The notes beneath the pieces were generated by a model. It had not been told where the DNA came from. It did no database searches and saw nothing but the letters and a program-made list of their open reading frames with translations. From NCBI GenBank assembly GCA_947589385.1, contig CANPZW010000005.1:51099-115098 (forward strand): 64,000 nt of DNA, written 5' to 3'. Shown here piece after piece: positions 21,438 through 53,950 of the stretch. How positions within the stretch are numbered: the stretch's first letter is position 1; each line of letters begins with the position of its first letter. This DNA is from an uncultured Clostridia bacterium (GTDB lineage: Bacteria > Bacillota > Clostridia > Christensenellales > Borkfalkiaceae). The position numbers and the translations under genes were made by a program.

Positions 21438-22072
21438 AAAAGGGCAATACGTTATTTTTTAAAAACGCCCCCGCAATTCTCTCATTTGCCGCCGTGTGCG
21501 GCTCTAAGGAGAAGGAGGGAATAGTCGGTACGTACGCCGATATAACGCTTGAAGACGATATGTACGGCGAAAGCACGTACGAAAAAGCGGAGTGCAAAAT
21601 GCTCTCCACCGCCATATCGCTTGCCATAAAAAAGAGCGGGCTTGAAGAGAATAAGATAGACGTTCTTCTTTCGGGCGATTTGTTGAACCAGATTATTTCG
21701 GCAAGTTTCGCCGCGCGCGACTTCGAATTTCCGTTTTTGGGGCTTTATTCGGCGTGTTCGACGATGAGCGAAAGTATTCTTCTCGGCGCGTCTTTGGTGG
21801 ACGGAGGATATGTAAATACGGCTGTTTGCGCCACGGGCAGCCATTTTGCCTCGGCGGAAAGGCAGTACCGATATCCTTTGGAGCTGGGCTGTACCCGTCC
21901 GCCGCAATCCCAGTGGACTGTTACGGGCGCGGGCGGACTTGTGCTCGGCAAGTCGGATAAAGGAGTTAAAGTCACCTGCGGCACAATGGGCAGAGTCCGC
22001 GACTACGGCGTGACAGACGTAAACAACATGGGCGCCGCAATGGCGCCTGTTAATGCTATTATAGCACCATAA
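21434..22072 (+). pseudogene. spoVAD: 5' fragment of spoVAD, truncated at the left end of the element
   Basis: Strong SpoVAD-like N-terminal part ending ..YGVTDVNNMGAAMAP then unrelated VNAIIAP-stop; full-length SpoVAD is about 340 aa. Confidence 0.85.
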
Positions 22073-22197: not shown

Positions 22198-22887
22198 TCA
22201 AATAAACGTTTCTTGTATCACGTCAACAATCGAGCGGCTGCTGTCGGTTACGTACTCTTGATATTCTGTAATATAAATAATTTCTTTGTCTTTTTGGATT
22301 TTTGCTTTACTGTTTAATATGATTATCCCGCCGGTTGCTGTTTTGGTATCCGAGTAGGATATGAAATATTGAGGTAAGGTGATGTCTGTAAATTTATCCG
22401 TAATTTCAAAACTCGGATATGTGTAGTTAGGATTGCAGACCGCAACAAAATCAAATTTGATTGTTGTGTTTATGTGCATCATATGAATGGAATAAAGAAT
22501 GGTATCGCCGCTGACTTTATCTATTGTCTTATCAACGGAGATGTCATATAACGATTTATCTATATTAAAATCGTATTCTTTCATATCGGCGTCCATTTCA
22601 TCGAATGTGGAGTTTGATATTTCAAAGTTTTCTTCCAAATATATTGGAAGTGTATCGGTTGATGCAAATGGATAAAACACGAGAACACATACAAGAATAA
22701 CGGCAGAAACCGCAACGCTTGCCGCGCCTGCAATCCATTTTAAATTACGCTTCCAAAAATTTTGTTTGGGTTTTGGTGCGTTTTCGATTTGTTCTAACAT
22801 TGAATAGTATTTTTGGTTTTTTCCGGCTTCCAAAATTTGTTGCTTATCAATATCAGATTGTTGTTTTAAGAAGTTTTTGCCTTTCAT
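22198..22887 (-). CDS. Single-TM protein, possible anti-sigma/regulator-like
   Basis: Cytoplasmic N-terminus of about 50 aa, then WIAGAASVAVSAVILVCVLVFYPF TM and extracytoplasmic domain; same strand as and downstream of an ECF sigma gene. Confidence 0.45.
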   Translation of the reverse strand: MKGKNFLKQQSDIDKQQILEAGKNQKYYSMLEQIENAPKPKQNFWKRNLKWIAGAASVAVSAVILVCVLVFYPFASTDTLPIYLEENFEISNSTFDEMDADMKEYDFNIDKSLYDISVDKTIDKVSGDTILYSIHMMHINTTIKFDFVAVCNPNYTYPSFEITDKFTDITLPQYFISYSDTKTATGGIIILNSKAKIQKDKEIIYITEYQEYVTDSSRSIVDVIQETFI

Positions 22888-22888
22888 A

Positions 22889-23728
22889 TCAATAAATATT
22901 TACCGCCAAAACGTCGTTGATGGTTGTATTGTAATGTATATTGAATAATCCGCTTGAATTATAAAATGTTCCCGAAGCGACATAAATGTAGTCGTAATTT
23001 TCTGTGCCGTTGTTTGTCACATAGGTATAGGTTTCATAGCCGAAGCCTACCATAATGTGATTAGCGGTGGAAGTAAGGCAGTCAACGCTATCTTCATTGT
23101 CATATGGAAAGATGTCGCAAACATTATATCCGCCCAAAAACAATACTACCGGATATCCGGCTTCTATGTAGTCCTGTGCTTTACCAAAATCAAACGAGCC
23201 GTTTGACATGCAAGAATAGAATTGTATGTGTTTTCCCTTTTCGATGCAGAACCGCGTTACGCCTAGCTTAAAATCGTTCTCGGTTGCGCCGTAGCCGTCG
23301 CCCGTTATGTATTGGTATAATGTTTCGATAGTTTGTTTAACATTTGAATCTTCGATATGGTAAATAAAAAGGTCAGTATCTTCTATTTTCCTTCCCGAAA
23401 CATGGTCTGGAATGAGATTTTCGTCAAACCTATCGTAGTAGCCTATAAGATTCCCCGCCGCAACTGCCGCGCACGAACCGACAGCCGGGGCATAGGTGTA
23501 TGACGGGCACATGGCGGCTTGATAGTAAGAAGAAGTTAAAGTTTTGCTGATATAGGGAATATCAAACCAAAATTGCGAGGAATCTGAATTTTCCCCTGTG
23601 TAAAAAGTGTCGTAGTAATACACTTTTTCGTTTGTATGCACATCTGCCGTATTGACCGTAGGAACAGACCACGTGCAGAGGAACATAACAGTACCTAATA
23701 AAATCGAGCTTAAATGTAACATTTTCAA
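22889..23728 (-). CDS. Secreted cysteine-peptidase-like protein (C39/C10-like fold)
   Basis: Signal peptide; SCAAVAAGNLIGYYDRF (Cys) and ANHIMVGFGYETY (His). Confidence 0.6.
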   Translation of the reverse strand: MKMLHLSSILLGTVMFLCTWSVPTVNTADVHTNEKVYYYDTFYTGENSDSSQFWFDIPYISKTLTSSYYQAAMCPSYTYAPAVGSCAAVAAGNLIGYYDRFDENLIPDHVSGRKIEDTDLFIYHIEDSNVKQTIETLYQYITGDGYGATENDFKLGVTRFCIEKGKHIQFYSCMSNGSFDFGKAQDYIEAGYPVVLFLGGYNVCDIFPYDNEDSVDCLTSTANHIMVGFGYETYTYVTNNGTENYDYIYVASGTFYNSSGLFNIHYNTTINDVLAVNIY

Positions 23729-23788: not shown

Positions 23789-24298
23789 TTAATTTTTAGA
23801 AAAAAATTTTTTCAGCTCTGCGTAAGCCCTGCTCACGCGCTTCCGCAAGTTAACATATTCAATGCCGAGAACATCTGAAATTTCTTTGAAAGAGTAACCC
23901 TCCCAAAAGTGCATATAGAGTATAGTCTGAGAGGTTTTGTCCAAAGCCGATAAATATTTTTTCATATCCTCGCTTAAAATAAGGCTATCAATATCGAACG
24001 GAGCGGGGAACGTAGGGTGCAGAGGTAAATCGAAGTATATTTTATCGAGCGTGTTTTTAGCTAAATTTTCCGCAAGCGTGAAAAGCCACGCGGTGGGATT
24101 GTTTATTGTTTCTTTCTGTTCTAATTTTAAAAGTTTTAAAAAAAGTTCTTGTGCAATTTCCTCCGCCGAGATTTGATTCCCGAAGCAACGCCTTAAATGG
24201 AAAACGATTTTGGGATAAAATTCGTTATAGAGCTGTTCAAATGCTTTTACGTCGGTATTAAGTTTGCGAAACAGTTTGTTAAATTTATTAGCGTTCAT
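23789..24298 (-). CDS. ECF-type RNA polymerase sigma factor
   Basis: ISAEEIAQELFLKLLK (region 2) and LDKTSQTILYMHFWEGYSFKEISDVLGIEYVNLRKRVSRAYAELKK (region 4). Confidence 0.85.
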   Translation of the reverse strand: MNANKFNKLFRKLNTDVKAFEQLYNEFYPKIVFHLRRCFGNQISAEEIAQELFLKLLKLEQKETINNPTAWLFTLAENLAKNTLDKIYFDLPLHPTFPAPFDIDSLILSEDMKKYLSALDKTSQTILYMHFWEGYSFKEISDVLGIEYVNLRKRVSRAYAELKKFFSKN

Positions 24299-24578: not shown

Positions 24579-25484
24579 ATGAAATATCGCGAATGGTTGG
24601 AGCAATGGCTGTTTTTGGTGAAGCCGTCAATCAAGCAATGCACATATGAACGCTATACGTCGGTTGTAAAAATCCACTTGAAACCGAATTTAGGCGAATA
24701 CGACATAGACGACCTTACCGCGCGGCACCTCCAAACGCTGATTGCAAATTTGTCGGGAGCTTATTCGCCCGGCACGATAAACTGCATAGCGTTTGTGGCG
24801 AAGCGTTCGCTGTTGTGCGCGGAAGAATTGGAAGTAAGGCAAACCCGCTTGAATTGCAAAATGCGTTACAGACTGCGCTATAAACGCGATATTAAATGCC
24901 TTACGGTGGCAAACCAAATGAAATTGGAAAAATATGTGAGCAATTCGGAGATTCCCAAACTGTTCGGGATAACCATTTGCTTATACACGGGTTTACGCGT
25001 GGGCGAGCTTTTGGCGTTGAAGTGGAGCGACATAGATTTCAAAAATTCGATAATTTATGTGAACAGCACCTGTCACGACATTTATACCAACGCGGGCTAC
25101 GAAAAGCTTATCGTTGCGCCAAAGACCTTTACTTCCAAACGCGAAATACCGTTGCCGAAACGGATAACCCCCGGCTTGAAAGATTTAAGCAAAGCAAGCA
25201 AAAGCGATTTCGTTATTTCGGGCAAAGATGGACAGGTAGTATCGAAGCGTTCCTATGAAAGCACGTTCGGCAGCGTACTTAAAAAACTGGGATTGCCGCA
25301 TATGGGCTTGCACAGCCTGCGGCATACTTTTGCCACGCGCGCGCTTGAAAGCGGAATGGACGTAAAAACGCTTTCGGAGATTTTGGGACACAAAAACGCG
25401 GCGATTACATTGAATTGCTATGTTCACAGTTTGTCCGAACACAAGCGGGCGATGATGAACAAAGTTGGCAAAAATTTACAGTAA
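24579..25484 (+). CDS. Tyrosine recombinase (phage-integrase family), candidate DNA invertase
   Basis: TGLRVGELLALKWSDID, HSLRHTFATRALESGMDVKTLSEILGHKN, CYVHS (R..HxxR..H..Y); SAM-like N-terminus. Confidence 0.93.
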   Translation: MKYREWLEQWLFLVKPSIKQCTYERYTSVVKIHLKPNLGEYDIDDLTARHLQTLIANLSGAYSPGTINCIAFVAKRSLLCAEELEVRQTRLNCKMRYRLRYKRDIKCLTVANQMKLEKYVSNSEIPKLFGITICLYTGLRVGELLALKWSDIDFKNSIIYVNSTCHDIYTNAGYEKLIVAPKTFTSKREIPLPKRITPGLKDLSKASKSDFVISGKDGQVVSKRSYESTFGSVLKKLGLPHMGLHSLRHTFATRALESGMDVKTLSEILGHKNAAITLNCYVHSLSEHKRAMMNKVGKNLQ

Positions 25485-25493: not shown

Positions 25494-25516
25494 AAAAAAA
25501 GGCGTTCAACAACGCC
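25494..25516 (-). terminator. Leftward-acting intrinsic terminator beside the invertible segment
   Basis: Minus strand reads GGCGTT-GTTG-AACGCC-TTTTTTT. Confidence 0.7.
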
Positions 25517-25523
25517 GTAAAAT

Positions 25524-25548
25524 TTCAAAGTAAACCCTATACTTTGAA
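25524..25548 (+). repeat. Inverted site IR-left of promoter switch
   Basis: TTCAAAGTA-AACCCTA-TACTTTGAA. Confidence 0.9.
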
Positions 25549-25627
25549 AAAATTAAGGATAAAAGCCGCGTTTTTGTAAAGTTATGTATCTTCTGTAAAT
25601 TTTTTACAAAAAATTTTTATTATTTCC

Positions 25628-25656
25628 TTGACAAAATTAAACCTAAGTGATATTTT
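25628..25656 (+). promoter_or_regulatory. Invertible sigma-A-type promoter (reads toward 25764 in this orientation)
   Basis: TTGACA (25628-25633), 17 bp, TATTTT (25651-25656), between two inverted sites. Confidence 0.8.
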
Positions 25657-25670
25657 AATAGTGAATAAAA

Positions 25671-25763: not shown

Positions 25764-28526
25764 ATGAATTCGATAAAGAAATTGTCAATCTCGCTAATGG
25801 TTGCGGCTTGTACAGCTTGCTTTATATTCGGAATTGCAGGCTGTGAACCCGACAACGGAAAAGATACTATCGAACATGTACATAGCTTTTCCGAAGAATG
25901 GATGTCCGATACAACCGAGCATTGGCACGAGGCGACGTGCGAGCATACCGACGAAAAGGGCAGTGTGGGAACGCATATCGATGAGGACAACAACGGCAAA
26001 TGCGACGTTTGCGATTACACAATGCAAACCGGGGAAGCGCATACCCATACGTTTGACAGAAGCCATTGGGAACACGACGCGAACACCCATTGGCATGCGG
26101 CAACCTGCAGCGATACTACCGAAAGACAAGACGAAGCCCCCCATATTGACGAAGACGATAATCAAGCGTGCGACGTTTGCGAAGAATACGTGCCCCATAC
26201 CCATAAATTCAGCGAGACGGAATGGGAATTTGACCTCGATAACCACTGGCGGCCCGCAACTTGCACTGATACAAACGAAAAAGGTAGCGAAGCCGAACAC
26301 AATTTTGACAACGGCGGCGTATGCGAGTGCGGATTAAAGGAAGTAGAAAAGCAGGCTTATAACTCTTTAATAGACTACAAAATCCTTGATGGGGAAGAAA
26401 ACGATTTTTACACCTGGCTTACGGGTTTAAAAGCGGACGGGAAAGCGGTGCGGGTAACCGAAAAAAGCGACATAGTTTATGACCATAACGGGAATGTTGA
26501 GGTCGTATATGTAGCCGAAAGAACGATAAAAGTAAAAGCGACGATAGACGGCGGCAATGGTTTGGAGCACGTTTGGTTTAAAGTTGCAAATACTTCCGCT
26601 TCCGAAACCGACGAACATAACACCAACGCTTTGGGTGTAGGAGAGACGGGCGCGGACGGCGTTGCCACAATAACTTTCAAACCCGCCGGCTACACTACAT
26701 ATAAAATAATGCTTGCCGAAGCAAAAGACGTTGCCGCACTTGTAGGCGGCGAAGAAGCCGACATAAAGGTTATGCCCAACAGATATTCCGTTAAAAATTC
26801 CTCGGCGGGCAAAGGCGAAGTTGGTGATATTGCGGTAGGAGAAACGGACGAAACAGGCACCGACGATATTACGGGAACGCTTGACTTTAAATACGACGTA
26901 AGTTGGGCGGCTTCCGACAAACAGATGTTGCCTTACGAGCGGCGTTATGATGATGAAGTAGCCGGCACCGGTGGACCGAAAGAATACGGAAAAGAATACA
27001 ATTTCACTGCAACGGGCGGCAAAATTTTCGATTATCTGCTGTTTTCACCCGCGCATAAGTACGATTGGAATGCGGGTAGCACTTCGGAAGATTTCGATAA
27101 AATAACCGAAAATTTCAAAAACGCGGCTTCGGGCGAATACGAAATTTCGTTCACCGCAGAGGGCGACGATAGCGCGCGCTTGTACTATTGGGGCGAAATC
27201 GACGATTTATCCCTGGGGCAAAAAGAATCAGACGATTCGCCTTCCAACTCATATGTCACGTCTGTTTCGGGTACAAAACCCGCCGGCTCGACTATTGCCG
27301 ACAAGGCGTTCACTGGCGAAAACAAAGTTTTAGTCACAATAAAGCCCGAAAGAGGTTTGGTGGATTTCCAACTCGGCATAATATGCGAAAACGCTTGTCT
27401 AGTTAAGATAACCGTTAAAAGACTGGGTGATTATGTGGCATTGGAAACGGGTGGTGTCCTTACAGTCGGCGAAAATACCAACGGCGGGAAAGGATATACT
27501 CTTAACGGCAGTGAGGATAACAATGGCGTAACTGCGTTTACGCTTCAAGATGTAGAGCCGGGTTTATATTATCTTACCGTAGGTACGGGCAAAACTATCG
27601 GTGCCTACAAGGCTTATTGTAGGTCGAGCGAAAAAACTATCCTTTATGAAGACGGGAAGTATAAGGGCGTAGTTCGCGTAAATGAGGGCGACACTACCTT
27701 ATATTTGCAGTACGGTTTACGAGGCACTGGTAAGAGAGACTCAATATCATTAGAGAAGTATGTAGCTCCCACTGTGGGATTAGAAACTTCTTGGATTCCC
27801 GCTTCGGGAAAGGATTGTGAAGACATCGAAATAGGCTTTGACGGTGCGGTAAGTCCCGGGCAGTACAGAATGGAAATATCTACTTTCGGATATGAGACCG
27901 GATATTCGGGCGGGGGAACATCCGATGGCTTTTATGCAATTGTTAAAGTGGGAAGCAGAAGTTATCAGACGTCTCTACGGGCTAAATATTTTGCTGACCA
28001 GTCATCCGGTGCCTTGGCTAACGAATGTGAGTATAATCCGGCGGTAATAGAGATAAAAGCGGGCGAAACACTTAACCTTCATGTCACTACGCCGCAGATA
28101 CAAGGTTTCTCCGCAAAAGTAAAACTTGTGGCTTATGGCGGCGTTGCTGTTGGCGATGTGATAACAATTGACCGACCTGAGAAAAGTTCGAAAGTTGAAA
28201 GATACACTTTTACCGCGTCATCTGCCGGAACATATAAGATTACTTTGAATTTGATTGAACAGTATTTCCATGGCAACACCTCTAAACCCGAAAAGTTTAC
28301 CGATGGCGACCTTTCTACACTGGACGTAAAGGACGAAACACATAACAGCATGATTATCACGCACACAAGAGCGCAAGGTTATACTGGTGCTCCGATTGAA
28401 GACCCTGTGCGGACCCTTTCGGGAACATTCACAATGGAGGAAGGCGGAAGTATCATACTTGCGATTAGTACGACTTTATCAAGTGAGCTAATGAAATTCA
28501 GTTTTACGATAGAATTTGTTGAATAA
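25764..28526 (+). CDS. Large surface lipoprotein with three His/Cys/Asp-rich N-terminal repeats
   Basis: Lipobox FGIAGCEP; repeats W..D...HWH.ATC...HIDEDNNGKCDVC. Confidence 0.75.
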   Translation: MNSIKKLSISLMVAACTACFIFGIAGCEPDNGKDTIEHVHSFSEEWMSDTTEHWHEATCEHTDEKGSVGTHIDEDNNGKCDVCDYTMQTGEAHTHTFDRSHWEHDANTHWHAATCSDTTERQDEAPHIDEDDNQACDVCEEYVPHTHKFSETEWEFDLDNHWRPATCTDTNEKGSEAEHNFDNGGVCECGLKEVEKQAYNSLIDYKILDGEENDFYTWLTGLKADGKAVRVTEKSDIVYDHNGNVEVVYVAERTIKVKATIDGGNGLEHVWFKVANTSASETDEHNTNALGVGETGADGVATITFKPAGYTTYKIMLAEAKDVAALVGGEEADIKVMPNRYSVKNSSAGKGEVGDIAVGETDETGTDDITGTLDFKYDVSWAASDKQMLPYERRYDDEVAGTGGPKEYGKEYNFTATGGKIFDYLLFSPAHKYDWNAGSTSEDFDKITENFKNAASGEYEISFTAEGDDSARLYYWGEIDDLSLGQKESDDSPSNSYVTSVSGTKPAGSTIADKAFTGENKVLVTIKPERGLVDFQLGIICENACLVKITVKRLGDYVALETGGVLTVGENTNGGKGYTLNGSEDNNGVTAFTLQDVEPGLYYLTVGTGKTIGAYKAYCRSSEKTILYEDGKYKGVVRVNEGDTTLYLQYGLRGTGKRDSISLEKYVAPTVGLETSWIPASGKDCEDIEIGFDGAVSPGQYRMEISTFGYETGYSGGGTSDGFYAIVKVGSRSYQTSLRAKYFADQSSGALANECEYNPAVIEIKAGETLNLHVTTPQIQGFSAKVKLVAYGGVAVGDVITIDRPEKSSKVERYTFTASSAGTYKITLNLIEQYFHGNTSKPEKFTDGDLSTLDVKDETHNSMIITHTRAQGYTGAPIEDPVRTLSGTFTMEEGGSIILAISTTLSSELMKFSFTIEFVE

Positions 28527-28583
28527 GTTTTTATTTGAAGGCGGCGCCATATATGGCGACTAAAATATTAGGAGGAGTTTTTT

Positions 28584-31500
28584 ATGAAAAAAACTCGAAC
28601 AAAAACCCTGGCTGTCGTAGCCCTCACATCGGCTATGACCGCCTGCGTAGCCGGAGGAATTGGTTACGCGAAGTTAAACCACGCAGTATTTGCATCTGCG
28701 GATACTGCAAATTACTATGCGGAAAGGAGTAACGTCTTTTCCGGGACAGGTACGCTGACGCAGACGGAGTCGGCAACCTTTGCGCTCACGGGCGTAAAGG
28801 CGGGACAGTATTCGGTGACGGTGGAAATCACACACACCGAGGGCACTTCCCAAGACTGGTTCTATCTGTCGGCAACGGGAAACGGTGAAGCGGTGTTCCT
28901 TAACGAAGGTACCGAAACCGAAGGCAATCCCAAATATTATGGGGTTGTAAACGTTGACGAGAACGGCACTCTTACAATTTCCTCCACCTCGCCGAACACA
29001 TTGTCCGTAAGCGTAACGCTCGAGAATCTCTTTATGAGCGAGGGGAACGGATATAGTCTCGGCAATGTATTGATTCCGACGGACGGAATGAATGCTCTTG
29101 ATGTAGAGATTCGTGACACTACTGCAAAGACCTTTACCGTTCAGATTGACCTTGGCGACCGTATTTTAACAGACGAAGAAACGTTAACGGCAGAAATAAA
29201 TGATGCAAGCGCAGAATTGGTTGCTCAAACCGCAGACCTTGCAATCTACTCGGCAACGATAACACTTCCTACAACGGTTGAAACTGCAACGAGCTTGACT
29301 ATCGAATCGACAATAGTAGCGTCCGAGGGTGAAAGCGTAGTAGGTTCAATTACCTTATTCCCTCTCGGCACGGCTACACCCATAACTGATAAAACCGCAA
29401 CGGCTACAAATGTGCCCGTTTGGGAAACTGCAATATTCTCATATACGCCTTCCGAAACGTCTTATCAGACGGTTGCAATAACCTCGACGGCAAGTCCTTT
29501 ATATACCTCAACGACCGTAAGCACAGTCGCGGGTACTTTTAGCGGCTCGCCCGTTGCCGGCGAAGATTATCCCGTATATCTCGAAGCGAATACTACATAT
29601 TACTTTGAAGTAACGCTTTTGGGAACGGATGAACAGGGCGAAGACGTAGGATATACGAGCGCAGACCTTACCATAACTCTTAAAGACTGGGAACGTCCCA
29701 CAATAGAAGTAGGCGGTTCGTACGCTTTACCTGTAACCACCGCGGACGAAACTCCCGAGATGTTTACTTTGACAGCGGCAGAGGGTACCTATGACCTTAC
29801 CATTACCGAAGTTCCTTTCGACTATTATATTTACGGCATTACAGTCACAGCGCATATAACTTATGCCGCTGGAACCCCTGCGGTTCAAGAGGTAGTTTTG
29901 GATTCGGATCATAACTATTCCGCGTCGGTTGAAATTGCCGCTAATGCAGAGAGTATTTATTTTACAACTTCTCAAAATAGCCGTTCGGTAATCCGTGTAA
30001 GTTTGACCGTACCCGAAGTTCTACATTACATAGTACCGGGTGAGTCCACCGATATCACCGTTCCCGCTAACGGCTCGATAACATACTTTATCGAAGCCGC
30101 GCCGTCAGGCGTTTATTCGCTCAATTTGACGAAAACTTCGTCGAGCGTTTCCGTTATGGTCGGTGACGTTACCATAATCCCCGCTGGCAAGACCATGGGC
30201 GGTTTTGTAGTGCAGTACGCAGGAAACGATTTCGGCATAACTTTTGTGAACAGCAGCGATGCGGAAGTTGAAATTACCGCGATGGTTGCGGCCGAAGCCC
30301 AAGACACAACCATACAGCTTAATGAAGGTAAAACCATTACGTTGGCCGCAAATCAGAGACAGGCGTTCTTTATGTATAGCCTTGCGGCAGGTGATTTTAC
30401 GTTGAGCATTACTCCTGCAACAACAACCGGAATTGCGCTTGAAGTTGACGGCGTACCTGTAACCTTAACCGACGGAGAGGCTATAATAACCATTTCGGAG
30501 GTACAGGATGCAAATGGGCTTGTAAACTTCACGTTTGAAAATACCGGAGATGAGTCCGTTACTTTCACCGTTACGGTTACGCCCGAACACATGGTAAATG
30601 TAGGCGAGGAATTTGAAATTACGGTTGCCGGATACTACAATTATGTTGCATATTATGTAGGAGGATTTAAAGCCAACACCGAATACTACATGGTACTCGA
30701 CCTTCCCGAAGGCGTTTCCGCTACCGTATCTCAGAACGGCGAAGAATTCGTTTACTACGGAAATGCCATTGGTGTGTTCACCGCGGATAGCAACGGTTAT
30801 ATAACGATGAGATTCAGTATATATGCCTATGGCGATTTTACTACGGTTAGGGCGTATATTGATGAATATGAAGCAAGTACGGAAAAAACTATGACTTTGA
30901 ATACCGCTACTAACATAACGGTAGAGAAATACTATACAACTTACACTCTTAACCTTACACAAGGTGTGTATTATATCAGCGTTTTGGGCGATGTGGAAGC
31001 GACCATTAACGGAACGCTTGTTTCGAATTCCATTTCGTATTATGTTGACGCCGCCGAAGGTCAAGTGGTAACGGTAAGAGTTACGTTTATCAACTTCACC
31101 GGCACTATCGCTACGGCTACCGCCACGGTTGTAACCGACGTAATGAACGTCGGCGAAGAAAAGACCGTAACTCTCGCGGCAGATTCTTCCAATGTTTACG
31201 GCATAGACCTTGAAAGGGGTGTGTTCACTTTATCTCTTTCCGAGAATGAGAACGTTGAAGTACGGTTTGACGGCGTGGTAGTTGCACCCGAAAACGGTAC
31301 TTACAGGTTGGATGTTACTATGAGCGGCGGTCATACCTTGACTTTCGTGAACACGGGTGCTTCCGAAGTTTCTTTCACGGCGACAGTTACTCCCAACAAT
31401 CTCTTAACGCTTGGTGAGGAAGAAGAAATTACGCTCGGAGCCGGAAGTAGTGAAAATTACTACATTGACCTTGAAGCGGGTTCGTACACTGTAACTCTTA

Positions 31501-31667
31501 CCTTTGCTGACGGTTCTGAGATTGAAGTTTACTTTGAGGATGAGCAGATTGTTTATTCAGGTGAAAACTTCGGTACTCTTACTATAGTGAATAGTGGCTA
31601 TAATGTTTTGACTTTCGTTAATTTGGCTGATACAGAAGTTACTTTCACTGTTATAGTAACTAGATAA
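28584..31667 (+). CDS. Large secreted protein with tandem beta-sandwich-like repeats
   Basis: N-terminal signal; recurring NVGEEKTVTLAADSSNVYGIDLERGVFTLSLS..FVNTGASEVSFTATVTP modules. Confidence 0.7.
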   Translation: MKKTRTKTLAVVALTSAMTACVAGGIGYAKLNHAVFASADTANYYAERSNVFSGTGTLTQTESATFALTGVKAGQYSVTVEITHTEGTSQDWFYLSATGNGEAVFLNEGTETEGNPKYYGVVNVDENGTLTISSTSPNTLSVSVTLENLFMSEGNGYSLGNVLIPTDGMNALDVEIRDTTAKTFTVQIDLGDRILTDEETLTAEINDASAELVAQTADLAIYSATITLPTTVETATSLTIESTIVASEGESVVGSITLFPLGTATPITDKTATATNVPVWETAIFSYTPSETSYQTVAITSTASPLYTSTTVSTVAGTFSGSPVAGEDYPVYLEANTTYYFEVTLLGTDEQGEDVGYTSADLTITLKDWERPTIEVGGSYALPVTTADETPEMFTLTAAEGTYDLTITEVPFDYYIYGITVTAHITYAAGTPAVQEVVLDSDHNYSASVEIAANAESIYFTTSQNSRSVIRVSLTVPEVLHYIVPGESTDITVPANGSITYFIEAAPSGVYSLNLTKTSSSVSVMVGDVTIIPAGKTMGGFVVQYAGNDFGITFVNSSDAEVEITAMVAAEAQDTTIQLNEGKTITLAANQRQAFFMYSLAAGDFTLSITPATTTGIALEVDGVPVTLTDGEAIITISEVQDANGLVNFTFENTGDESVTFTVTVTPEHMVNVGEEFEITVAGYYNYVAYYVGGFKANTEYYMVLDLPEGVSATVSQNGEEFVYYGNAIGVFTADSNGYITMRFSIYAYGDFTTVRAYIDEYEASTEKTMTLNTATNITVEKYYTTYTLNLTQGVYYISVLGDVEATINGTLVSNSISYYVDAAEGQVVTVRVTFINFTGTIATATATVVTDVMNVGEEKTVTLAADSSNVYGIDLERGVFTLSLSENENVEVRFDGVVVAPENGTYRLDVTMSGGHTLTFVNTGASEVSFTATVTPNNLLTLGEEEEITLGAGSSENYYIDLEAGSYTVTLTFADGSEIEVYFEDEQIVYSGENFGTLTIVNSGYNVLTFVNLADTEVTFTVIVTR

Positions 31668-31684
31668 AGAATTAAACCAAACCT

Positions 31685-31710
31685 CGGTTTACCGCTTCGG
31701 CGGTAAACCG
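31685..31710 (+). terminator. UUCG-capped hairpin between operon genes (possible attenuator)
   Basis: CGGTTTACCGC-TTCG-GCGGTAAACCG followed by TTGGTTTTCTTTT. Confidence 0.55.
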
Positions 31711-31765
31711 TGCGCTTGGTTTTCTTTTAATACCCCAAAAAATAAAAAAGTGGAGGTTAAAAATA

Positions 31766-32986
31766 GTGGGTAAAAAAAGTAAACTTGCCGCATTGGTAGC
31801 GGGCGCAAGTCTGCTGCTTGGTACTTTCGGTTTGACCGCATGCGCTCCCGAAAACGATGATAAAACGGGCAACAGAGTTCCCGAAGATATATATGCAATC
31901 TATATCGCTTATGCAGAGACCGCGGGAGAGGATGCTATGACCTATGACGAATGGTATGCACATCTTCTTGAAACCGCCAAAGGCGATAAGGGTGATGACG
32001 GTAAAAGTGCCTATGACATATGGAAAGAAAACGGTCATAGCGGAACGGAAGCCGAATTCCTTGAATGGCTGAAAGGCGGCAAGGGCGATGACGGCAAGAG
32101 CGCGTATGACATATGGAAAGAGCAAGACGGCAACGCCGAAAAAACAGAAGCTGAGTTCGTTGAATGGCTGAAAGGAGATAAAGGCGACGACGGCGACGAA
32201 GGTCCGAAAGGTGAAGCGGGAACAAAGTGGTTCACGGGTGAAGATGATGAGCCTTCCGCAGACCTCGGCGCGGAAGGCGATTTTTATTTAAATACCAAAA
32301 CGTTCGACCTTTGGACTAAAATTAAGGATTCCGGTTGGACTAAACTTGGTTGCATAAAAGGCGCGGACGCTGGTAGTGAAGCATCTCCTCAATATAAAGT
32401 GGTTAAAGATTTCGGACCAAAGACTATAAGTACAGAAGAAGTGCCGCTTGACTTGAATGAGGTTGATAACGGCACTTATTTTTTAGTCGTTGAAAGTGAT
32501 AGTGCGGCAGTAGCCAACAATTTAATGTGTAATCTTGATGCTAAACGTGACTATGATATGTACTGTCCTTTATCCCAAAGCTATAAAAGTGTTGTATTAA
32601 AAGGCGATGGTTCAGCGTTAAAACTTAAAGCCACTCAAAGTGTAACAGGAAATGTAAAACTTGTTGAATATTCGGCACCTACGATTAAAGCAGGCGAAAC
32701 TTGTGAAATTCCTTTACTGAATAGAAACTATGGTTATTTGCCAATTAATGTTGAGTCGTCTTTAATCGGGAAAAAAGTAAAAGTTACAATTCGTAGCTCG
32801 CTTGCCGTTGTAATTTGTCAATCTAATGATAAGCATACAAGTTTTGGTTCAATTACTGCTGATGCGGAAGATAAAACATTATATGTTAAAGAAATAACAA
32901 TTCCTGATGGAATGGATGCATTGTGCTTTGCAACATCAGCAACTAATTGTGCTAATGTGACTGTAAAAATTGAGATAGTCGATTAA
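31766..32986 (+). CDS. Lipoprotein with short collagen-like segments and AYDIWKE..GTEAEFLEWLKG repeats
   Basis: GTG start; lipobox FGLTACAP; GDKGDDGKSAYDIWKENGHSGTEAEFLEWLKGGKGDDGKSAYDIWKE. Confidence 0.75.
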   Translation: MGKKSKLAALVAGASLLLGTFGLTACAPENDDKTGNRVPEDIYAIYIAYAETAGEDAMTYDEWYAHLLETAKGDKGDDGKSAYDIWKENGHSGTEAEFLEWLKGGKGDDGKSAYDIWKEQDGNAEKTEAEFVEWLKGDKGDDGDEGPKGEAGTKWFTGEDDEPSADLGAEGDFYLNTKTFDLWTKIKDSGWTKLGCIKGADAGSEASPQYKVVKDFGPKTISTEEVPLDLNEVDNGTYFLVVESDSAAVANNLMCNLDAKRDYDMYCPLSQSYKSVVLKGDGSALKLKATQSVTGNVKLVEYSAPTIKAGETCEIPLLNRNYGYLPINVESSLIGKKVKVTIRSSLAVVICQSNDKHTSFGSITADAEDKTLYVKEITIPDGMDALCFATSATNCANVTVKIEIVD

Positions 32987-33017
32987 GTTTTCATAGCTTT
33001 ATTCCTTTTTAAACTTT

Positions 33018-33051
33018 CCCGTTTGCCGAAAACGGCAAACGGGAATTTTTT
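33018..33051 (+). terminator. Intrinsic terminator
   Basis: CCCGTTTGCCG-AAAA-CGGCAAACGGG-AATTTTTT. Confidence 0.75.
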
Positions 33052-33081
33052 AGGAAGCATATTAATAATTAAGGAGTTAAA

Positions 33082-35460
33082 ATGCGATTATTATGCAAAA
33101 AATTTATACTGTTGCTTTTTCCGTTGGTTTTAATTTTTGCCGCAATGGGGCTTGTCGCATGTAACGGCGGCGGCGAAACGCACAATGTTACGGTTAATTC
33201 AAATTTGCCGTTGACTGCGCCGCAAATTGAGCTTGCGGAAAACGTAATCAGTTGGACTGCCGTTGAAAATGCGGGTAAGTACGAAGTTTATGAAAACAAT
33301 TCGAGAATCAATGTGCAAACCGAAACTTCGTTCACAATCTCCCAAACGGCAGTTGGAACATACAAATACAGAATCAGAGCGTTGAGCGCGGACAAAAATC
33401 ACAGTTCGAGCAAATTATCGAACGAAGTGGTTTACACCGTTAAAGGCAAGATACAGCTTGCCGCGCCGCAGGTTTCAATAGACGAAGCCGCCAAAACGGT
33501 AAGTTGGGCCGCCGTTGAAAAAGCGGACGGCTACAAGGTTCTTGAAAACGGCGAAATCGTATCTTCGCAGACTGAAACTTCTTATACGATTACCCATACC
33601 GAAACGGGAAAGTATAAGTACACGGTTATAGCCACGAGCGCGAGCGAGGATTACAGCGAAAGCAGATCCTCTAACGAAGTGACCTATATAATAAGCGAAC
33701 AGCTTGCCACGCCGCACATAGAGCTTGACGAGGCGACCAAAACGATAAGTTGGACGGCTGTGGAACACGCCAATACTTATTTCATTTACGAAGACGGATA
33801 TGTTATCGAAGCTTCGTGGGACAGCACTTCGTATGTAATTGAACAGACAATAGTGGGAGAGCATACCTATTGCATTACTGCGTTGGGAGATGATTCCTCT
33901 GTTTACAAAATGTCCGAAAAATCCAATACCGTTACCTATGTCATTGAACCCACCGTGCTTGCAACGCCGGACGGTCTGAAAGAGGAAAGGGATTTACAAG
34001 GTCATGTTACGCTTGTATGGAACGAAGTAGAGGGTGCGGGCGGTTATGTCATTTATGAGAATAACCGAAAAATTGAAAAGAGGTGGACAGATTCCGCTTA
34101 TCCCATAACCCATGTGGAAGCCGACACCTATGAATATAAGGTGCAGGCAATTCCCGCCCGCGACGACAAGCAATATCTCGAAAGCGGTATATCCGAGCCT
34201 ATCGAAATAACGATAGAGGACAACAGAACCCAACTTTCCGAGCCGAAGAATTTTAGAATCGAAACCCGCGAATTTTATTATAAAGACTCGCAAGGAAACA
34301 TTATTCCCGGTACTGTGCCTGTATCTTATGAATGTCTTGTTTGGGATGAGGTTGCAAACGCGGAGAATTATCTTGTATATGAAAGCGGTAAGCGCGTGTA
34401 CAGCACAACCGAGACATATATTGAGATTGGAAAGCAATTTAGCGAGCCTAGAAAATATAAATTCCAAGTAAAGGCGGTTGCACATGGTACGCTATATAAA
34501 TCGAGCGAATTGAGTGAAGTCTTTGATGATTTTAAAATCGATGTTGAAAATATAAAATATACGGTTAGGCTTAATGTTGACGCGGCTTCCCGCTTTTCGC
34601 AGTCCGTGCAAGTGGGCTTGTTCCCGCAAGATAATAACGGATTGCCCGCGCAAACTGTTCCGATTGGCGGTACAACAAGAAATTTAACTACAACCGAGCC
34701 TGCGGAGATAGAATATAACAACGCCATAAGCTATGTAGCGAAAATCATCAACTTGCCTGCGGGTTACTATGCTACAGAGGTAAGGCTTTCAGCTATGAAT
34801 CCCGAGGGAACAATATATGTTTATAATTCTACTTCGGATGTATTCAGTGTCTCGAATAGTAATTCTGTAAATATAAAGATAGCAAATGAGCCGCAGAGCA
34901 AGTTATTTATACCAAACGAAGCAGGGCAATACACAATAAGCACTACCGAAACCAAAGAAATGACAATCGGCGTAGGCGCAAGCGCAAGGACGGCGATAGA
35001 TACTGGAAACGGGCTTACAATGTTTACGTTTTCGGCAGACGCCAATGAAGCTGTATTGATTTCGGTTAATAGCCCTGAAATCGGTGCATACAGATTCACT
35101 ATTGAAAGAGGTGCAAAAACGCCTTCGTTAAAAATAGGCACGGAACGCGGAGATAATGCAAACGTCATATCGGGTGATATGCAATCGGTGGAATATTCGC
35201 TTAATTTATCGACAGATACGGAATATATTTTCAATTTCTCACCAATGTATTTGGGCCCCGACCGCTTTGCGACGGTGACTATCAACCCCGACACAGTCAA
35301 TGAAGAAGTCTATGAATTTGACGGCGGATATGAATATGAAAAGCACATATTCATAAAAGCGGGTCAAAATATCAAGATTCGGGTTGATATAATTGGTACG
35401 ACGACGGACGAAACGATGTCCAACGTTTATTTCAGCGTATTTCCGTTGACAGAAGACTAG
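33082..35460 (+). CDS. Surface lipoprotein with tandem Fn3-like repeats
   Basis: Lipobox MGLVACNG; LAAPQVSIDEAAKTVSWAAVEKADGYKVLENGEIVSSQTETSYTITHTETGKYKYTV repeated about 5 times. Confidence 0.8.
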   Translation: MRLLCKKFILLLFPLVLIFAAMGLVACNGGGETHNVTVNSNLPLTAPQIELAENVISWTAVENAGKYEVYENNSRINVQTETSFTISQTAVGTYKYRIRALSADKNHSSSKLSNEVVYTVKGKIQLAAPQVSIDEAAKTVSWAAVEKADGYKVLENGEIVSSQTETSYTITHTETGKYKYTVIATSASEDYSESRSSNEVTYIISEQLATPHIELDEATKTISWTAVEHANTYFIYEDGYVIEASWDSTSYVIEQTIVGEHTYCITALGDDSSVYKMSEKSNTVTYVIEPTVLATPDGLKEERDLQGHVTLVWNEVEGAGGYVIYENNRKIEKRWTDSAYPITHVEADTYEYKVQAIPARDDKQYLESGISEPIEITIEDNRTQLSEPKNFRIETREFYYKDSQGNIIPGTVPVSYECLVWDEVANAENYLVYESGKRVYSTTETYIEIGKQFSEPRKYKFQVKAVAHGTLYKSSELSEVFDDFKIDVENIKYTVRLNVDAASRFSQSVQVGLFPQDNNGLPAQTVPIGGTTRNLTTTEPAEIEYNNAISYVAKIINLPAGYYATEVRLSAMNPEGTIYVYNSTSDVFSVSNSNSVNIKIANEPQSKLFIPNEAGQYTISTTETKEMTIGVGASARTAIDTGNGLTMFTFSADANEAVLISVNSPEIGAYRFTIERGAKTPSLKIGTERGDNANVISGDMQSVEYSLNLSTDTEYIFNFSPMYLGPDRFATVTINPDTVNEEVYEFDGGYEYEKHIFIKAGQNIKIRVDIIGTTTDETMSNVYFSVFPLTED

Positions 35461-35857: not shown

Positions 35858-35921
35858 TTTTCTGCAAACACTTCAAAGTCCGGTTGCGATTTTCAAAAAA
35901 TCAAGAATCGGAGGAATTTTA

Positions 35922-36411
35922 TATGAAGTGGAACAATGCAGCCGAACGAGCAAATTTTGAAAGAGAGCAAGCCCGAAAACGAGAGGAATATCTTGCGGCG
36001 GGAATGACGGAGGAACAGATACAGCTTATGCGAAGTTATGACATAGAGTGGTACAGAAACCGCAGACGGGAAACAATGCATACGCAAGGTCTGAACAATA
36101 CTGCGTTTGGCGGCGAATCCGAAGACGAAACGCAAAATCCGCTGTTACAGAAATTTATACATAGTCTTTCCGTTGAGGACAAGCACTTTGAAAATGAACG
36201 CTTCGGTTGGATAGAAGAAATAGAAAATAAAAAATTGTATTCGGCAATGAAATCGCTTTCAAACGCGGATAAAGAGCTGCTAACGCAATACATATTAGAC
36301 GGGCTAACACAAACGGAAATTGCCGAAATAGAGGGCGTTACGAATGTGGTTATTTGCAAGAAAATCAAGCGTATAAAAAAATTCTTAAAAAAATTTTTAG
36401 AGGATGGCTAA
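35922..36411 (+). CDS. Sigma-70 region 4-like HTH protein
   Basis: LSNADKELLTQYILDGLTQTEIAEIEGVTNVVICKKIKRIKKFLKK; ATG 35922 with GGAGG upstream. Confidence 0.7.
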
Positions 36412-36477
36412 TTTTTGGGCTTCTAATTTGGCTACCACTTGAAGAAGAACAAAATCCACAAAAAAGGAACAGGAATA

Positions 36478-36737
36478 TGAAGCTGAACATTGATGGATGC
36501 CGAAGCTATTGTAAACAATGCGGCATAAAAAACTATGTAGAACTTGCAGAGGTTTTGGAATTGAACGTGACGGTTTTAAAATTACTCGAACAAGGAATAG
36601 AAATCGGTTACGACGCGGTAAAGGAAATATACAACAAGCTCGGTGAGGAAGTGGTTTTGCAAATCATAGACTTTGGGGAGGAAACGCCGAATGGCTTTAA
36701 AAGCAAGTACTTTCAAATCGGTAATAAACTTTACTGA
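36478..36737 (+). CDS. Small conserved-type ICE protein, unknown function
   Basis: Internal ATG 36478; short helical ORF between HTH genes. Confidence 0.5.
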
Positions 36738-37164
36738 GAAACACAGGCAAGGAATAACATTAAAAAGCCGTACATTAAAGATTTGTCTGAAAAGAAAAGG
36801 CTATGGACAGACGTATTTTGCGGCACGGCTCGGTATGAGCAGGCGGAATTTAATGCGCAAGCTGTATATGCGGCAAACGTTTAATCAGAGGGAAATAACC
36901 GAATTGGTACGGCTATTGGGCGCGCGTATGGCAATCAAAGTAATATGGTTTCCGAGTTTGCGGGAAAAAAGGAAAATACAAAGATATGTGTGGTGGAAAC
37001 AAATGTCTGAAAAGAAAAATTTTAAGGATTTGCAGCAGGACGATTATGTCGGGAACAATAACAAATTGTTTGCGGAGCAAGAACAAGGCGACGAAATTGA
37101 AAAGTTGATATTTACTTGTAAAAAGCTACCGAGCCGTAAATTTATGAGGAGAAGAAATGTATAA
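36691..37164 (+). CDS. Putative HTH DNA-binding protein
   Basis: GYGQTYFAARLGMSRRNLMRKLYMRQTFNQREITELVRLLG. Confidence 0.5.
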   Translation: MALKASTFKSVINFTEKHRQGITLKSRTLKICLKRKGYGQTYFAARLGMSRRNLMRKLYMRQTFNQREITELVRLLGARMAIKVIWFPSLREKRKIQRYVWWKQMSEKKNFKDLQQDDYVGNNNKLFAEQEQGDEIEKLIFTCKKLPSRKFMRRRNV

Positions 37165-40100
37165 CGGTAGATTGACTGAACGCAATGCGGCGATAGCCGA
37201 GATGTTAGCGGACGGGGAAAGACTGAAAAACCTTTATCGATTTACGGCGCAAAATCCTCATATAAATCTTCACGACGCATGTCAGATAGTAATCGAGCGA
37301 CCGAATGTGACGGTATGTTATTCGTTTAACGAATGGTCAGCAATGGAACGGCGTATAACGAAAGGCAGGAAAGGGATTGAATATTACGACAGTGACGGTT
37401 ATAAGCAGTTTGTATTCGACGCCAATGATACGCACGGCGAAAACCGTTATATGCGCCCGATAATAACAATGAGAAGTTTGCTCGGCGGCTTGTCGGAGTT
37501 GAATGGCGTTCCGGATTCAGACTCGGAGCAGAGCGATTACATAAAAATCCGAAACGGCGTTCAAGACTACCTGCGCGAACAAGGTGAGCTAAACGGCGAC
37601 GAAGAACGCGATAAATTGCTTGTCGAGGGTGTGGCATATTCGCTGTACTCAAAAACAGGCTTCCCGAAAAGTGCGGGAATAAAATTGGGCGGGCTACCCT
37701 ATGGCTACCGTGAAAACGCCGATTTTGTAAAAAACGTGTATGTGTGGGCTAATAATCTTGAACAAGACATAGAAGAAGCAAACCGCGAAAAGCAAACCGA
37801 AATAAAAATCATAGACGACACGGACGAAGAAAACGTTTCGGACGAGCCATTATTGCCGACGAAGCAAGTGCGCAAGAAAGTGTTTTCGAGCGCGGTAAAA
37901 ATGTACGCGCAAAACTATGTTATTTTAACAGATAATCAAGCGGATAACGGCGTGGAAACGCATATATACATAGGCAAGCCCGAAAATCTTGACGAAGAGA
38001 CAAACGCTTATGACAATTCGGACGATAGCTTAATTTATGCAACGGACAGACCGCAGATGGCGTATTTATTATACGGTAAGGCATATGCGCAGACACAGCA
38101 AGAACTAATAGATAACGGCACATTTACGAAAGAAGATTATGCGGAATACAACAGATTAAAAGAGGGTGAATTAAAAGAAATCCTCGAAAAGGCAGATTTA
38201 AGATTCGGAATAAAAACGGGCGTTGCGGACAGCGGGTTGCCGTTTAAATATCCCGAATGGGAAATCAGCGAAAAACCTAATGTTGAAGAAGCACCGACAG
38301 TAATACCGCTATATCAGAAATATATCGATTCGCAAAAATTAGAACCTGCGGCGGTAGTTTTAATGCGGCTCGGTGATTTTTACGAGATTATGGGCGAGAA
38401 CGCCGTAAAGGTTTCGGAAGAACTTGACATTACATTGACGGGCAGGGACGTCGGGCTTAAAGAGCGGGTGCCGATGTGCGGTATGCCTTATCATGCAATG
38501 GATAAGTGTTTGGACAAAATACTTGAAAGACACAGCGTATTAATTGTGGACGGTGATGAAGAACCAAAATATATACTATCGCATACGGAAGCGCGCGCAA
38601 AACACGTTGAAAAAGAAGAAAAGAAAAAGCCGGAGCTTGTGGAAATTACGCGTGATGAACCAACGCCGTTTGATAATGAACAGCCTGAAACGGACGAAGA
38701 TTGGCGAACCGAACTTGCCGAGGAGCTTGCCGAGGAGAACGGGCAGCCCGAAGAAGAAATTGCCGAACCCGAAGAAGATGAATCGGAGGAATTGGAGGAG
38801 CCGCCCGGAAGCATAAGCGAACAGCCGAAAGACAAGGTTAAATCCACACCGAAGAAAGAAGAAAAGGGTATAAAAGACCGCAAGCGCAAACCGAAGCCGC
38901 AACTGTCAATGTTCGATATGCTTAAACCGCAAGAAAAATCGGCAGAGGAAGCACTCATTGAACGAGAGTTGAAGCGCGGCGGTAGTCTCAAATTTCGTAT
39001 TTTCGATAAGTACAATAAAAACCCCACGCAAAAAGCGTTTGCCGATTTTATAAAAAACGAATACGGAATAGGCGGATATAGCAGCTGGGAGGGCGATAGT
39101 GCAACGCATGACGCAAAAGGTATTACAATGTCCGTTCGCGGTAAGAACGGTGAATGTCTTGTTACAGCTTCTTTGAAATGGCCCGAAGTTGCAGTGCGAA
39201 TTGCAGACCTTATAGACGACGACAACTATTTTACCGAACAGGAAAAACAAGAATATGTCGAATACAAGATAGAGCAAGACCGCCAAAAAGCTATACAGGC
39301 AGAAAAAGAACGTCAAAAGACCGAACTTATAAACAAAGTAATTTTTTTTGCGCCGCCCGACCGCAAACAGCGTATTTTGGACGAATACGCAACCACAACG
39401 GTGCTTACCGATTTTGCCGAATTTCTTAAAAACGAATACGGAACATTTGAGGAACACGGGGAAGGCTATTCCGCAATATATAACCAACAGGGTATATGGA
39501 TTTACAAAGGTGAAACCTATGACTACCAAAAGGATTTTTATCTCAACTGGACAGAATTTGCGGATAAGACTTGCACACTCATAGAAAACGACAGATATAT
39601 CGAACAGTCAGAGCCGGAAGAACAGCCGCGTGATTTGGATGCAGAGGAAGATGAAGATTGGGATAACCTGATAAGTGCCCATGTATTAAAACCCATAGAG
39701 CCAACGACTGAAAAAGATAAAATCAAGAGTATTGTTGACCGCATTGTAAAAGAGGGAACGGAAAACACAAGCGGCGGAAATTGGATAATTTACCTTGACG
39801 AGTTTGGCGATGACGAAAATTTTGTCAGGGAACACAAAGGGGAAATCGGTGAGATTCTTGCTTTGCGTGAAGAAGTTGCGCGAGTTGCAATGGATGACGA
39901 AAGCATAGACACAAAGTTTCACTTGGAATTTTGCCCGAATATCGAAGAAGAACAGTCAGTTGAGAATACAAATCTGAACGGCGTATTAAACCAAAACGAG
40001 CTTGGCGGAGCAAAGACGAGATTCCGCAATAACGTTGCGGCAATCAAACTTGTAAATAAGCTGTATTCGGAAAACCGTAATCCCACGGATGCAGAGAAGA

Positions 40101-48805: not shown

Positions 48806-48821
48806 CGAACAAAAAAAGTGC

Positions 48822-48845
48822 TGTCCGCGTTCAGCGGACAGCCTG
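48822..48845 (-). terminator. Terminator between convergent genes
   Basis: GCTGTCCGC-GTTCA-GCGGACAGC flanked by A7 (T7 on minus strand). Confidence 0.65.
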
Positions 48846-48849
48846 TGAA

Positions 48850-49317
48850 TCAAATGTCGGTTATGGATAACGTTAAACCAAGCGGTTCAAGCAATCTCAA
48901 AAGAGTGGTAAGTTGAGGGTCGGTAATGCCTTTTTCCGTGCGCGCAATGCAGGCTTGCGGAACGCCCGAAAGAATTTCAAGTTGTTTTTGTGAAAGCCCC
49001 ATTGATTTACGCGCTTTAACAAATTCTTCAACAAGTTTTTGCTTATAGGCGTCCATGTTGCGTGGCGGTTCGCTCGTAACGCCTTTTTCATAAATCCCGT
49101 CGGCGGAAATATCAAGGTCGTCATTCCATACAAGCCCATAGCCGCCTACATCGATTTTGACTTGCCCATAAAGTCCTTCGACCTCGACAAGAGATTTAAA
49201 AGGCGGGTATTTATTGATAAGAGGTTTTAAATCGAATTGTTTAAATTCACCTGTTGAAAATCCCACTAAAAGCACATAGTCGGGTAACGCGGTGACGGAA
49301 GTGATTTTTACAAACAT
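48850..49317 (-). CDS. DUF2442 + XRE-type HTH fusion protein (antitoxin-like)
   Basis: N-terminal VTALPDYVLLVGFSTGEFKQFDL..; C-terminal MGLSQKQLEILSGVPQACIARTEKG. Confidence 0.7.
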   Translation of the reverse strand: MFVKITSVTALPDYVLLVGFSTGEFKQFDLKPLINKYPPFKSLVEVEGLYGQVKIDVGGYGLVWNDDLDISADGIYEKGVTSEPPRNMDAYKQKLVEEFVKARKSMGLSQKQLEILSGVPQACIARTEKGITDPQLTTLLRLLEPLGLTLSITDI

Positions 49318-49423
49318 AAATATTACTCCTTAAACATCAATCAATAGGCGGAAGCGGGTGAATGTTTTGCGAGTTCCACATTTCAAGCAGCGCGCTTTGG
49401 CGGACAGCCGTGAGGAATAGAAT

Positions 49424-49828
49424 TTATTTAATTTCCAAGAATTGCGCAGGGGTAAGTATTTTTGGATAGGATAATCCGGCTTCGAGCAAGTCGAAGTCGC
49501 CTGTAACTAATATGTCGGCTTTTGCTGCAATGGCTGCGCGGAGGATAGGTCGGTCATCAATATCACGAACCTGCTCCTCGGATTTATGTGCTTCATCGGG
49601 TATGGGAATAACTGTCAAAGTCAGCATTGACAACGCTAAAAATGATTCAAGTGCTCCGATTTTATCGGGGAATTTGCGATTGAACACACGGCGCATTTCG
49701 TCTATGTTTTGCTCGCAAATCACAGCTTGATTTGGCGAAGTAACAGCTTTCAGAAAGGCTTTAAAAGGCGTTCCGTTCCTGTTTAAAGCCGAAGAAACAA
49801 GCACGTTCGTATCAATCATTATTTTCAT
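49424..49828 (-). CDS. PIN-domain toxin
   Basis: MKIMIDTNVLVSSALNRNGTP.., DDRPILRAAIAAKADILVTGDFDLL. Confidence 0.8.
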   Translation of the reverse strand: MKIMIDTNVLVSSALNRNGTPFKAFLKAVTSPNQAVICEQNIDEMRRVFNRKFPDKIGALESFLALSMLTLTVIPIPDEAHKSEEQVRDIDDRPILRAAIAAKADILVTGDFDLLEAGLSYPKILTPAQFLEIK

Positions 49829-50102
49829 CGGGCGTACCTTCACGGCGAATTTCTTTTACAAGTTTCATAACTTTATCGTCAGAGTCAAGCCCAAGCCGTT
49901 CTGCTTCGCCGTCAAGCTCGTTTTGAAGCATTTGCATAGCAAAAACGGCGGCGTTCATAATGCGGACGGAATTGCCGTCAACGACGAAAGAAATGCGGTC
50001 TCCGATAGAAATACCGAGTGCTTTGCGCACGTCGATGGGAATTGTGACCTGCCCTTTTGCCATAACTTTTGCGCTATCTATAAAAGCATTTGAATTTTGC
50101 AT
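49812..50102 (-). CDS. AbrB/SpoVT-type antitoxin
   Basis: VMAKGQVTIPIDVRKALGISIGDRISFVV; overlaps the PIN gene. Confidence 0.85.
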   Translation of the reverse strand: MQNSNAFIDSAKVMAKGQVTIPIDVRKALGISIGDRISFVVDGNSVRIMNAAVFAMQMLQNELDGEAERLGLDSDDKVMKLVKEIRREGTPDENND

Positions 50103-50212
50103 AATAACCTCCCTATTTTTATGGAAAAGTAGGGAAAACCCTACTTATGATTATTATACGCAATTTTAACTAAAATGTCAATAGTAAATTAAGAAATTTA
50201 GGAGGATAAAAA

Positions 50213-53944: not shown

Positions 53945-53950
53945 CAAAAG

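Follow-up and report, generated by a model that had tools for sequence, protein, structure and literature searches.

An invertible promoter that has its own recombinase, gives ON/OFF control of a lipoprotein operon and lies inside an integrative conjugative element (ICE) inserted in spoVAD is the likely reading of the region analyzed here, a 64,000-nucleotide stretch of a contig from an uncultured Clostridia bacterium (hereafter, the window). In the proposed mechanism, a tyrosine recombinase (24579-25484) would flip a segment of 174 bp (25523-25696) through recombination between two 26-nt repeats. In the ON state, which is the orientation of the assembly, the promoter at 25628-25656 would fire into genes 1 and 2 of the operon, and genes 3 and 4 would be transcribed to the extent that RNA polymerase reads through two internal hairpins. 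In the OFF state, the promoter would fire toward the recombinase gene, and transcription would end at a leftward terminator (25501-25516). The switch and the operon would ride together within the ICE inserted in spoVAD.

Promoter segment, repeats and recombinase

The features of the predicted switch are as follows.

24579..25484, + strand: tyrosine recombinase, proposed invertase, 301 aa (PF00589, 103 bits; PF14659)
25501..25516, - strand: leftward intrinsic-terminator-like hairpin between the recombinase stop codon and the left repeat
25523..25548, + strand: left inverted repeat, putative recombination site, 26 nt
25549..25670, no strand: proposed invertible segment between the repeats, 122 bp
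25628..25656, + strand: sigma-70-like promoter TTGACA-17-TATTTT with TGn, inside the segment
25671..25696, - strand: right inverted repeat, complementary to the left repeat at 26 of 26 positions

Repeats and spacer together make up the 174-bp segment. Each 26-nt repeat is near-palindromic by itself (TTCAAAGTA AACCCTA TACTTTGAA), which fits the expectation for the core site of a tyrosine recombinase. A genome-wide search found no further copies of this repeat elsewhere in the same genome, and there were no Rfam matches over 20-38 kb. The perfect inverted repeats enclose the region's strongest sigma-70-like promoter, which faces the operon, the ON orientation in the present assembly; the start predicted by the promoter scan agrees with the transcription start at about 25663 proposed in a preceding, sequence-only reading of this DNA. 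Four sites of the region match at 10/12 positions, and of these, this promoter alone combines the full TTGACA with TGn; promoter-like sites in the scanned region number 20, compared with a chance expectation of 22.1. Outside the invertible segment, a weak site at 25702-25730 (9/12, no better than chance) could allow orientation-independent expression and is a caveat against the switch.

Inverted repeats flanking a promoter upstream of the regulated gene, the arrangement of a promoter inverton, are thus what the window locus contains. In a cwpV-type switch, the promoter would instead lie outside the inverted DNA, and the flipped segment would make or break a leader terminator. The cwpV switch of C. 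difficile has repeats of similar length and spacing (21 nt, 195 bp; PMC2784873), but the only strong promoter is inside the segment, both here and in most related modules, and terminator control of the cwpV type appears scarcely credible.

The recombinase retains all six catalytic residues (R140, K187, H245, R248, H271 and Y281), and its closest solved structures are 6emy and 6en0, annotated as 'Int protein'. Homologs (E <= 1e-40) were detected in 41 of the 94 genomes of the genus, and the recombinase family is represented in 105 of the 301 genomes of the bacterial family, across 12 of its 17 genera. No relatives were found in viral contigs; the phage and plasmid relatives among the best matches listed show only about 30-35% identity, and a scan of genome contigs yielded two relatives at 41-45%. 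The recombinase adjoins the repeats, and this adjacency is conserved across related loci. The possibility that this enzyme is the integrase of the ICE was considered and rejected, because it accompanies promoter repeats in modules outside ICEs, for example, in genome G071.

To compare related modules, inverted repeats with a score of at least 14, a spacing of 90-200 bp and a position within 350 bp of the recombinase were searched for at the 38 recombinase-homolog loci with enough sequence, with dinucleotide shuffles as the control. Such repeats were detected 3' of the recombinase at 20 of the 38 loci and 5' of it at a single one, compared with 0.26% of shuffles; about half of the homologs lack a repeat, a point against the proposed mechanism. 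A promoter matching at least 10/12 positions is present in the segments of 22 of 30 modules versus 10.5% of shuffles, in counts that are not fully independent given that some modules are orthologs. The spacers of related modules span 101-175 bp, and many modules have TTCA-type arms in common and differ in the centers of the repeats.

A leftward intrinsic-terminator-like hairpin between the recombinase stop and the left repeat occurs in 15 of 22 modules (5.3% of shuffles), and a rightward one in the same position in 3 of 22. Given its position and direction, the leftward terminator would act in the OFF state, halting transcripts from the inverted promoter ahead of the recombinase gene, which they would otherwise enter in antisense.

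Inside the segments, the promoter is found in either orientation: ON in the window and G071, OFF in G070. Genome G069 carries two segments, on contigs C4 and C19, with the same promoter and near-identical repeats in opposite orientation; they match only as reverse complements (71.5 versus 18). Comparison of orthologs and paralogs, two of the latter from a single genome, thus reveals both orientations, and the window locus is read as ON. The G069 pair provides the best evidence for inversion that the sequences offer. The C19 segment precedes a second four-gene operon and has no recombinase within the 15 kb examined, a hint that the enzyme might act in trans.

One alternative is a locked relic, with repeats and recombinase intact but inactive and the operon constitutively ON in this lineage. 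Locking does occur, as illustrated by a module on contig C9 of the same genome (locus L015, 3046-7599), where a frameshifted recombinase lies beside intact 19-nt repeats, upstream of an operon for prepilin-like proteins. In the window, however, the recombinase is full length, with all of its catalytic residues, and the repeats are perfect; drift would erode such perfection, which counts against a relic and makes it, in our judgment, quite unlikely. We favor a functional switch, in which the segment would invert in the window strain and transcription would follow its orientation.

Similar modules are not confined to this locus or genus. The same switch architecture was identified in other genera of the bacterial family, and the first cargo gene encodes an exported protein in 12 of the 13 repeat-bearing modules with readable cargo, according to our reading of the gene lists. 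In the window's own genome, contig C30 carries a second switch (recombinase 52% identical, 122-bp spacer) with a lipoprotein signal sequence directly after it, and contig C16 starts within the end of a gene 1-like gene and continues with genes resembling genes 2 and 3; it is possible that C30 and C16 were formerly joined.

Several variants were observed in the course of this comparison. Loci L065 and L066 (G073 contig C7 and G072 contig C51) contain more than two alternative repeat pairings, with spacers of 123, 172 and 175 bp, which suggests a three-site switch. At L058 (reverse strand of G026 contig C4, 4236-5885), the recombinase homolog has no repeat and is followed by a reverse-transcriptase-like ORF, a 162-aa ORF and a 2718-aa secreted protein, an arrangement that, judged by eye, is possibly a diversity-generating retroelement. 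Contig ends appear to be enriched close to switches.

Four probable cargo genes and the reach of the proposed switch

Downstream of the segment, the following genes and hairpins were annotated.

25764..28526, + strand: gene 1, lipoprotein of 920 aa, three His/Cys units near the N-terminus, ATG start
28584..31667, + strand: gene 2, 1027-aa secreted protein with tandem beta-sandwich domains, ATG start
31685..31710, no strand: strong, conserved hairpin in the gap between genes 2 and 3
31766..32986, + strand: gene 3, lipoprotein of 406 aa, SAYDIW repeats plus a short run of GXY, GTG start
33016..33045, + strand: intrinsic-terminator-like hairpin separating genes 3 and 4, 13-bp stem with a T6 tail
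33082..35460, + strand: gene 4, 792-aa lipoprotein with Fn3/Ig-like repeats, ATG start

The four consecutive exported proteins of 920, 1027, 406 and 792 aa described earlier were all recovered as + strand ORFs, separated by 57, 98 and 95 bp, with an AGGAGG ahead of gene 1 at 25753-25758. Lipoboxes had been assigned to three of them, and the motif is indeed found in genes 1 (GIAGC, Cys27), 3 (GLTAC, Cys26) and 4 (GLVAC, Cys27); the gene 2 product has a hydrophobic, export-like N-terminus without a convincing lipobox. All four proteins are probably exported, with those of genes 1, 3 and 4 probably anchored in the membrane, and they may coat the cell.

Ectodomains with tandem repeats had also been proposed, and internal repeats are present in all four proteins, with 6, 30, 3 and 65 pairs of repeat windows above the shuffle maximum in genes 1 to 4, respectively (residue-shuffled controls). 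The collagen-like character ascribed to gene 3 proved modest: the protein contains one run of six GXY triplets in addition to the SAYDIW repeats. An Scl-type (Scl/Lcl) collagen-like adhesin was tried as an identity for gene 3 and rejected, with scores of 21.2 bits against a cut-off of 400, 19.9 against 500 and 17.1 against 325. The His/Cys units of gene 1 begin at residues 38, 93 and 145, and the structure model of this protein is poor (pLDDT 53.6). The AlphaFold2 model of gene 2 is all beta, a chain of sandwich domains (pLDDT 74.6); one PLipase_C_C match was above the cut-off, and a fold search against the PDB returned generic multi-domain beta-sandwich matches only, with low TM-scores. In gene 4, all Ig-like matches were sub-threshold.

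How much of the operon is switched is a separate issue. The sequence-only reading held that promoter inversion would turn the whole surface coat on or off. A promoter inverton with its own recombinase does face the operon, but the hairpins in the second and third intergenic gaps speak against a single four-gene unit. The first of these hairpins is found in all four operons compared (the window, G071, G020 and G069 contig C19), with a folding energy of this gap of about -30 to -35 kcal/mol, and stems similar to the second one are present in G069 C19 and G020. Terminator-like hairpins within the operon argue against one uniform transcript, so that only genes 1 and 2 can be confidently predicted to be phase-variable targets.

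It is a serious possibility, to which we give somewhat less than even weight, that the same switch governs genes 1 and 2 only, with genes 3 and 4 insulated by the hairpins and subject to their own control, for example, by the neighboring ECF sigma factor. This factor belongs to a gene triple that adjoins the switch on its left side.

22198..22887, - strand: 229-aa membrane protein (ORF) with a cytoplasmic N-terminal part, one TM segment and an exported domain
22889..23728, - strand: secreted C39-peptidase-like protein (PF13529, 20.4 bits, weak, below the 24-bit cut-off)
23789..24298, - strand: ECF-type sigma factor (PF08281, PF04542; TIGR02937, 65.6 bits versus a cut-off of 42.9)

The 229-aa protein had no family match in profile searches and is anti-sigma-like by context. 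In G021 and G022, a similar triple of ECF sigma factor, C39-like and anti-sigma-like genes immediately precedes the gene 2-like gene of a related operon, which, together with the hairpins, would accord with restriction of the switch to genes 1 and 2. Conversely, the promoter scan of the gaps of the operon yielded no sigma-70-like match better than chance, the four-gene order is conserved, genes 3 and 4 of G071 lie only 32 bp apart with no hairpin between them, and such stems may also serve as partial attenuators or RNA stabilizers. Separate strong promoters in front of each gene, previously named, together with a lack of orientation dependence, as what would refute a common switch, are thus not apparent in the gaps, and genes 3 and 4 would have to rely on read-through or on a promoter type outside the scan.

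The full four-gene order is also found in G071, G020 and G069 C19. In G020, the operon stands without the recombinase or the repeat, so that cargo and switch are, on this comparison, separable; this locus also counts against the proposed mechanism.

Probable conjugative element and spoVAD

The switch and the operon are flanked by the following features.

21446..22057, + strand: 5' part of spoVAD, interrupted (PF07451 positions 3-206)
35880..64000, + strand: left part of a conserved ICE backbone (Pfam; homologous DNA in the G072 and G065 ICEs)

The 3' part of spoVAD (PF07451 positions 201-329) was identified on contig C15 (24724-25107), where it adjoins a large serine recombinase. From comparison with the intact spoVAD of relatives, the probable end of the element in spoVAD has the attL core CCTG at 22046-22049; this core is common to both spoVAD junctions and consistent with the intact relatives. 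On the other side, the backbone encodes a DUF3849/SNF2 giant protein, ArdC, a DNA methylase, a MobL relaxase, a coupling protein and a VirB4-like protein. The relaxase, coupling protein and VirB4-type ATPase by which an ICE is recognized are all represented, the first two by Pfam matches (MobL and T4SS-DNA_transf) and the VirB4-like protein, which is cut by the contig end, solely by 78% identity to an 878-aa ICE protein of G040.

The earlier placement of the switch on an ICE holds insofar as the switch lies between the 5' half of spoVAD and the conjugation genes. Contiguity is less direct: the spoVAD halves are on separate contigs (C5, that of the window, and C15) that are unjoined in the assembly, and the homology shared with the G072 and G065 ICEs at the DNA level extends from about 63980 back to 35880 and ends there, to the right of the operon, which places the operon outside the conserved backbone. 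On contig C26 of the same genome, the sigma factor/C39/229-aa triple (95%) is fused to the ICE backbone (99.5%) in a deleted copy of the ICE, which puts both on one element. The switch and the operon are likely ICE cargo, and the region would form one contiguous ICE.

Alternatively, the switch and the operon could represent a separate insertion into spoVAD, with the conjugative element inserted alongside at about 35.5-35.9 kb. The end of the backbone homology at 35880 agrees with this scenario, as does the chromosomal location of the same operon next to polA in G071. So do other ICE right ends in this 1.5-Mb genome, at the end of contig C11 and the start of contig C18 (a tyrosine integrase near a tRNA-like sequence; a large serine recombinase before grpE/dnaK-like genes). 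However, the C26 fusion implies that the triple to the left of the switch also travels with the ICE, and a search for an att-like repeat shared by the C11 ICE end and the window (about 35.4-37.2 kb), a test limited to the C11 end, yielded only short AT-rich chance matches. We consider two separate insertions unlikely and retain the interpretation of switch and operon as cargo of the ICE.

Splitting of spoVAD is not unique to the window's genome: here and in at least 7 of the 61 genus genomes searched (G055, G058, G062, G006, G007, G008 and G070), the break falls close to one common codon (about 201-206). The halves are 13-25 kb apart in G058 and G055, and the intervening DNA contains polysaccharide-type genes and, beside the 3' half, a large serine recombinase. 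spoVAD appears to be a recurrent, skin-like insertion site. It would go much further to propose that one mobile element controls mating contacts or host-cell adhesion through the ON/OFF coat and spore germination through excision that restores spoVAD; we regard this as very doubtful. In the window's genome, a pilin-like switch module occupies a chromosomal neighborhood that extends from an RNA methyltransferase-like to a TrpRS-like gene (L015, L120 and L121); in G021 and G022, this neighborhood contains instead a sigma factor triple and a gene 2-like operon.

Relation to known systems

If the proposed mechanism is correct, a mobile element can hand its recipient a set of surface proteins along with a ready-made random switch that has an insulated OFF state. 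Given the widespread recombinase family and the several modules that can coexist in one 1.5-Mb genome, phase-variable surfaces may be general in these poorly cultured Clostridia. The mechanism lends itself to direct testing, thanks to the opposite orientations within G069 and the conservation of the leftward terminator.

An invertible promoter on an ICE with its own recombinase had been put forward as a distinctive combination, but it has already been published for ICEs of Bacteroidales, which carry an invertase, then an invertible promoter and then cargo, and in which invertases have been repeatedly mobilized by conjugative elements (PMC8748976). The window has the same invertase-promoter-cargo order inside a likely ICE; the Bacteroidales invertons differ in having Bacteroidetes-type promoters and antibiotic-resistance or glycan-synthesis cargo, whereas the window comes from Clostridia, with a sigma-70 consensus and exported proteins. 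In a limited search of the open literature, such a combination in Clostridia with an insulated OFF side was not found described.

Among gut Clostridia, inverton group 139, associated with invertase group 35, has a tyrosine-type recombinase within 5 kb, and its orientation changes were measured in cultures (PMC11892184). By description, in the part of that source available, these invertons resemble the window locus in their short invertible segments, their occurrence in Clostridia and the nearby tyrosine recombinase; the probable location on a mobile element, the conserved leftward terminator and the four-gene lipoprotein cargo are features of the window not described for group 139 in that part. 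In C. difficile, cwpV is a phase-variable, repetitive surface protein of Clostridia under a tyrosine recombinase, with repeats of about 21 nt, but its promoter lies outside the inverted DNA, with control by termination, and not inside the segment as in the window; RecV is a genome-encoded recombinase that was tested in trans (PMC2784873). The fim switch of E. coli, which controls a surface structure, shares with the window a promoter between inverted repeats and the involvement of tyrosine recombinases, with the FimB/FimE pair in place of one adjacent recombinase. The phase-variable fimE terminator of this system is Rho-dependent, as cited in PMC2784873, in contrast to the intrinsic-type hairpin outside the segment in the window.

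With respect to the insertion site, literature searches found no case of an element interrupting spoVAD. The closest parallels are skin, gin and SPbeta (PMC5025042, PMC5595907, PMC4191935), in which, as proposed here, a site-specific element splits a sporulation gene and a serine recombinase is nearby; the present element differs from these in its target, spoVAD, in showing no sign of programmed excision and in having conjugation genes aboard.
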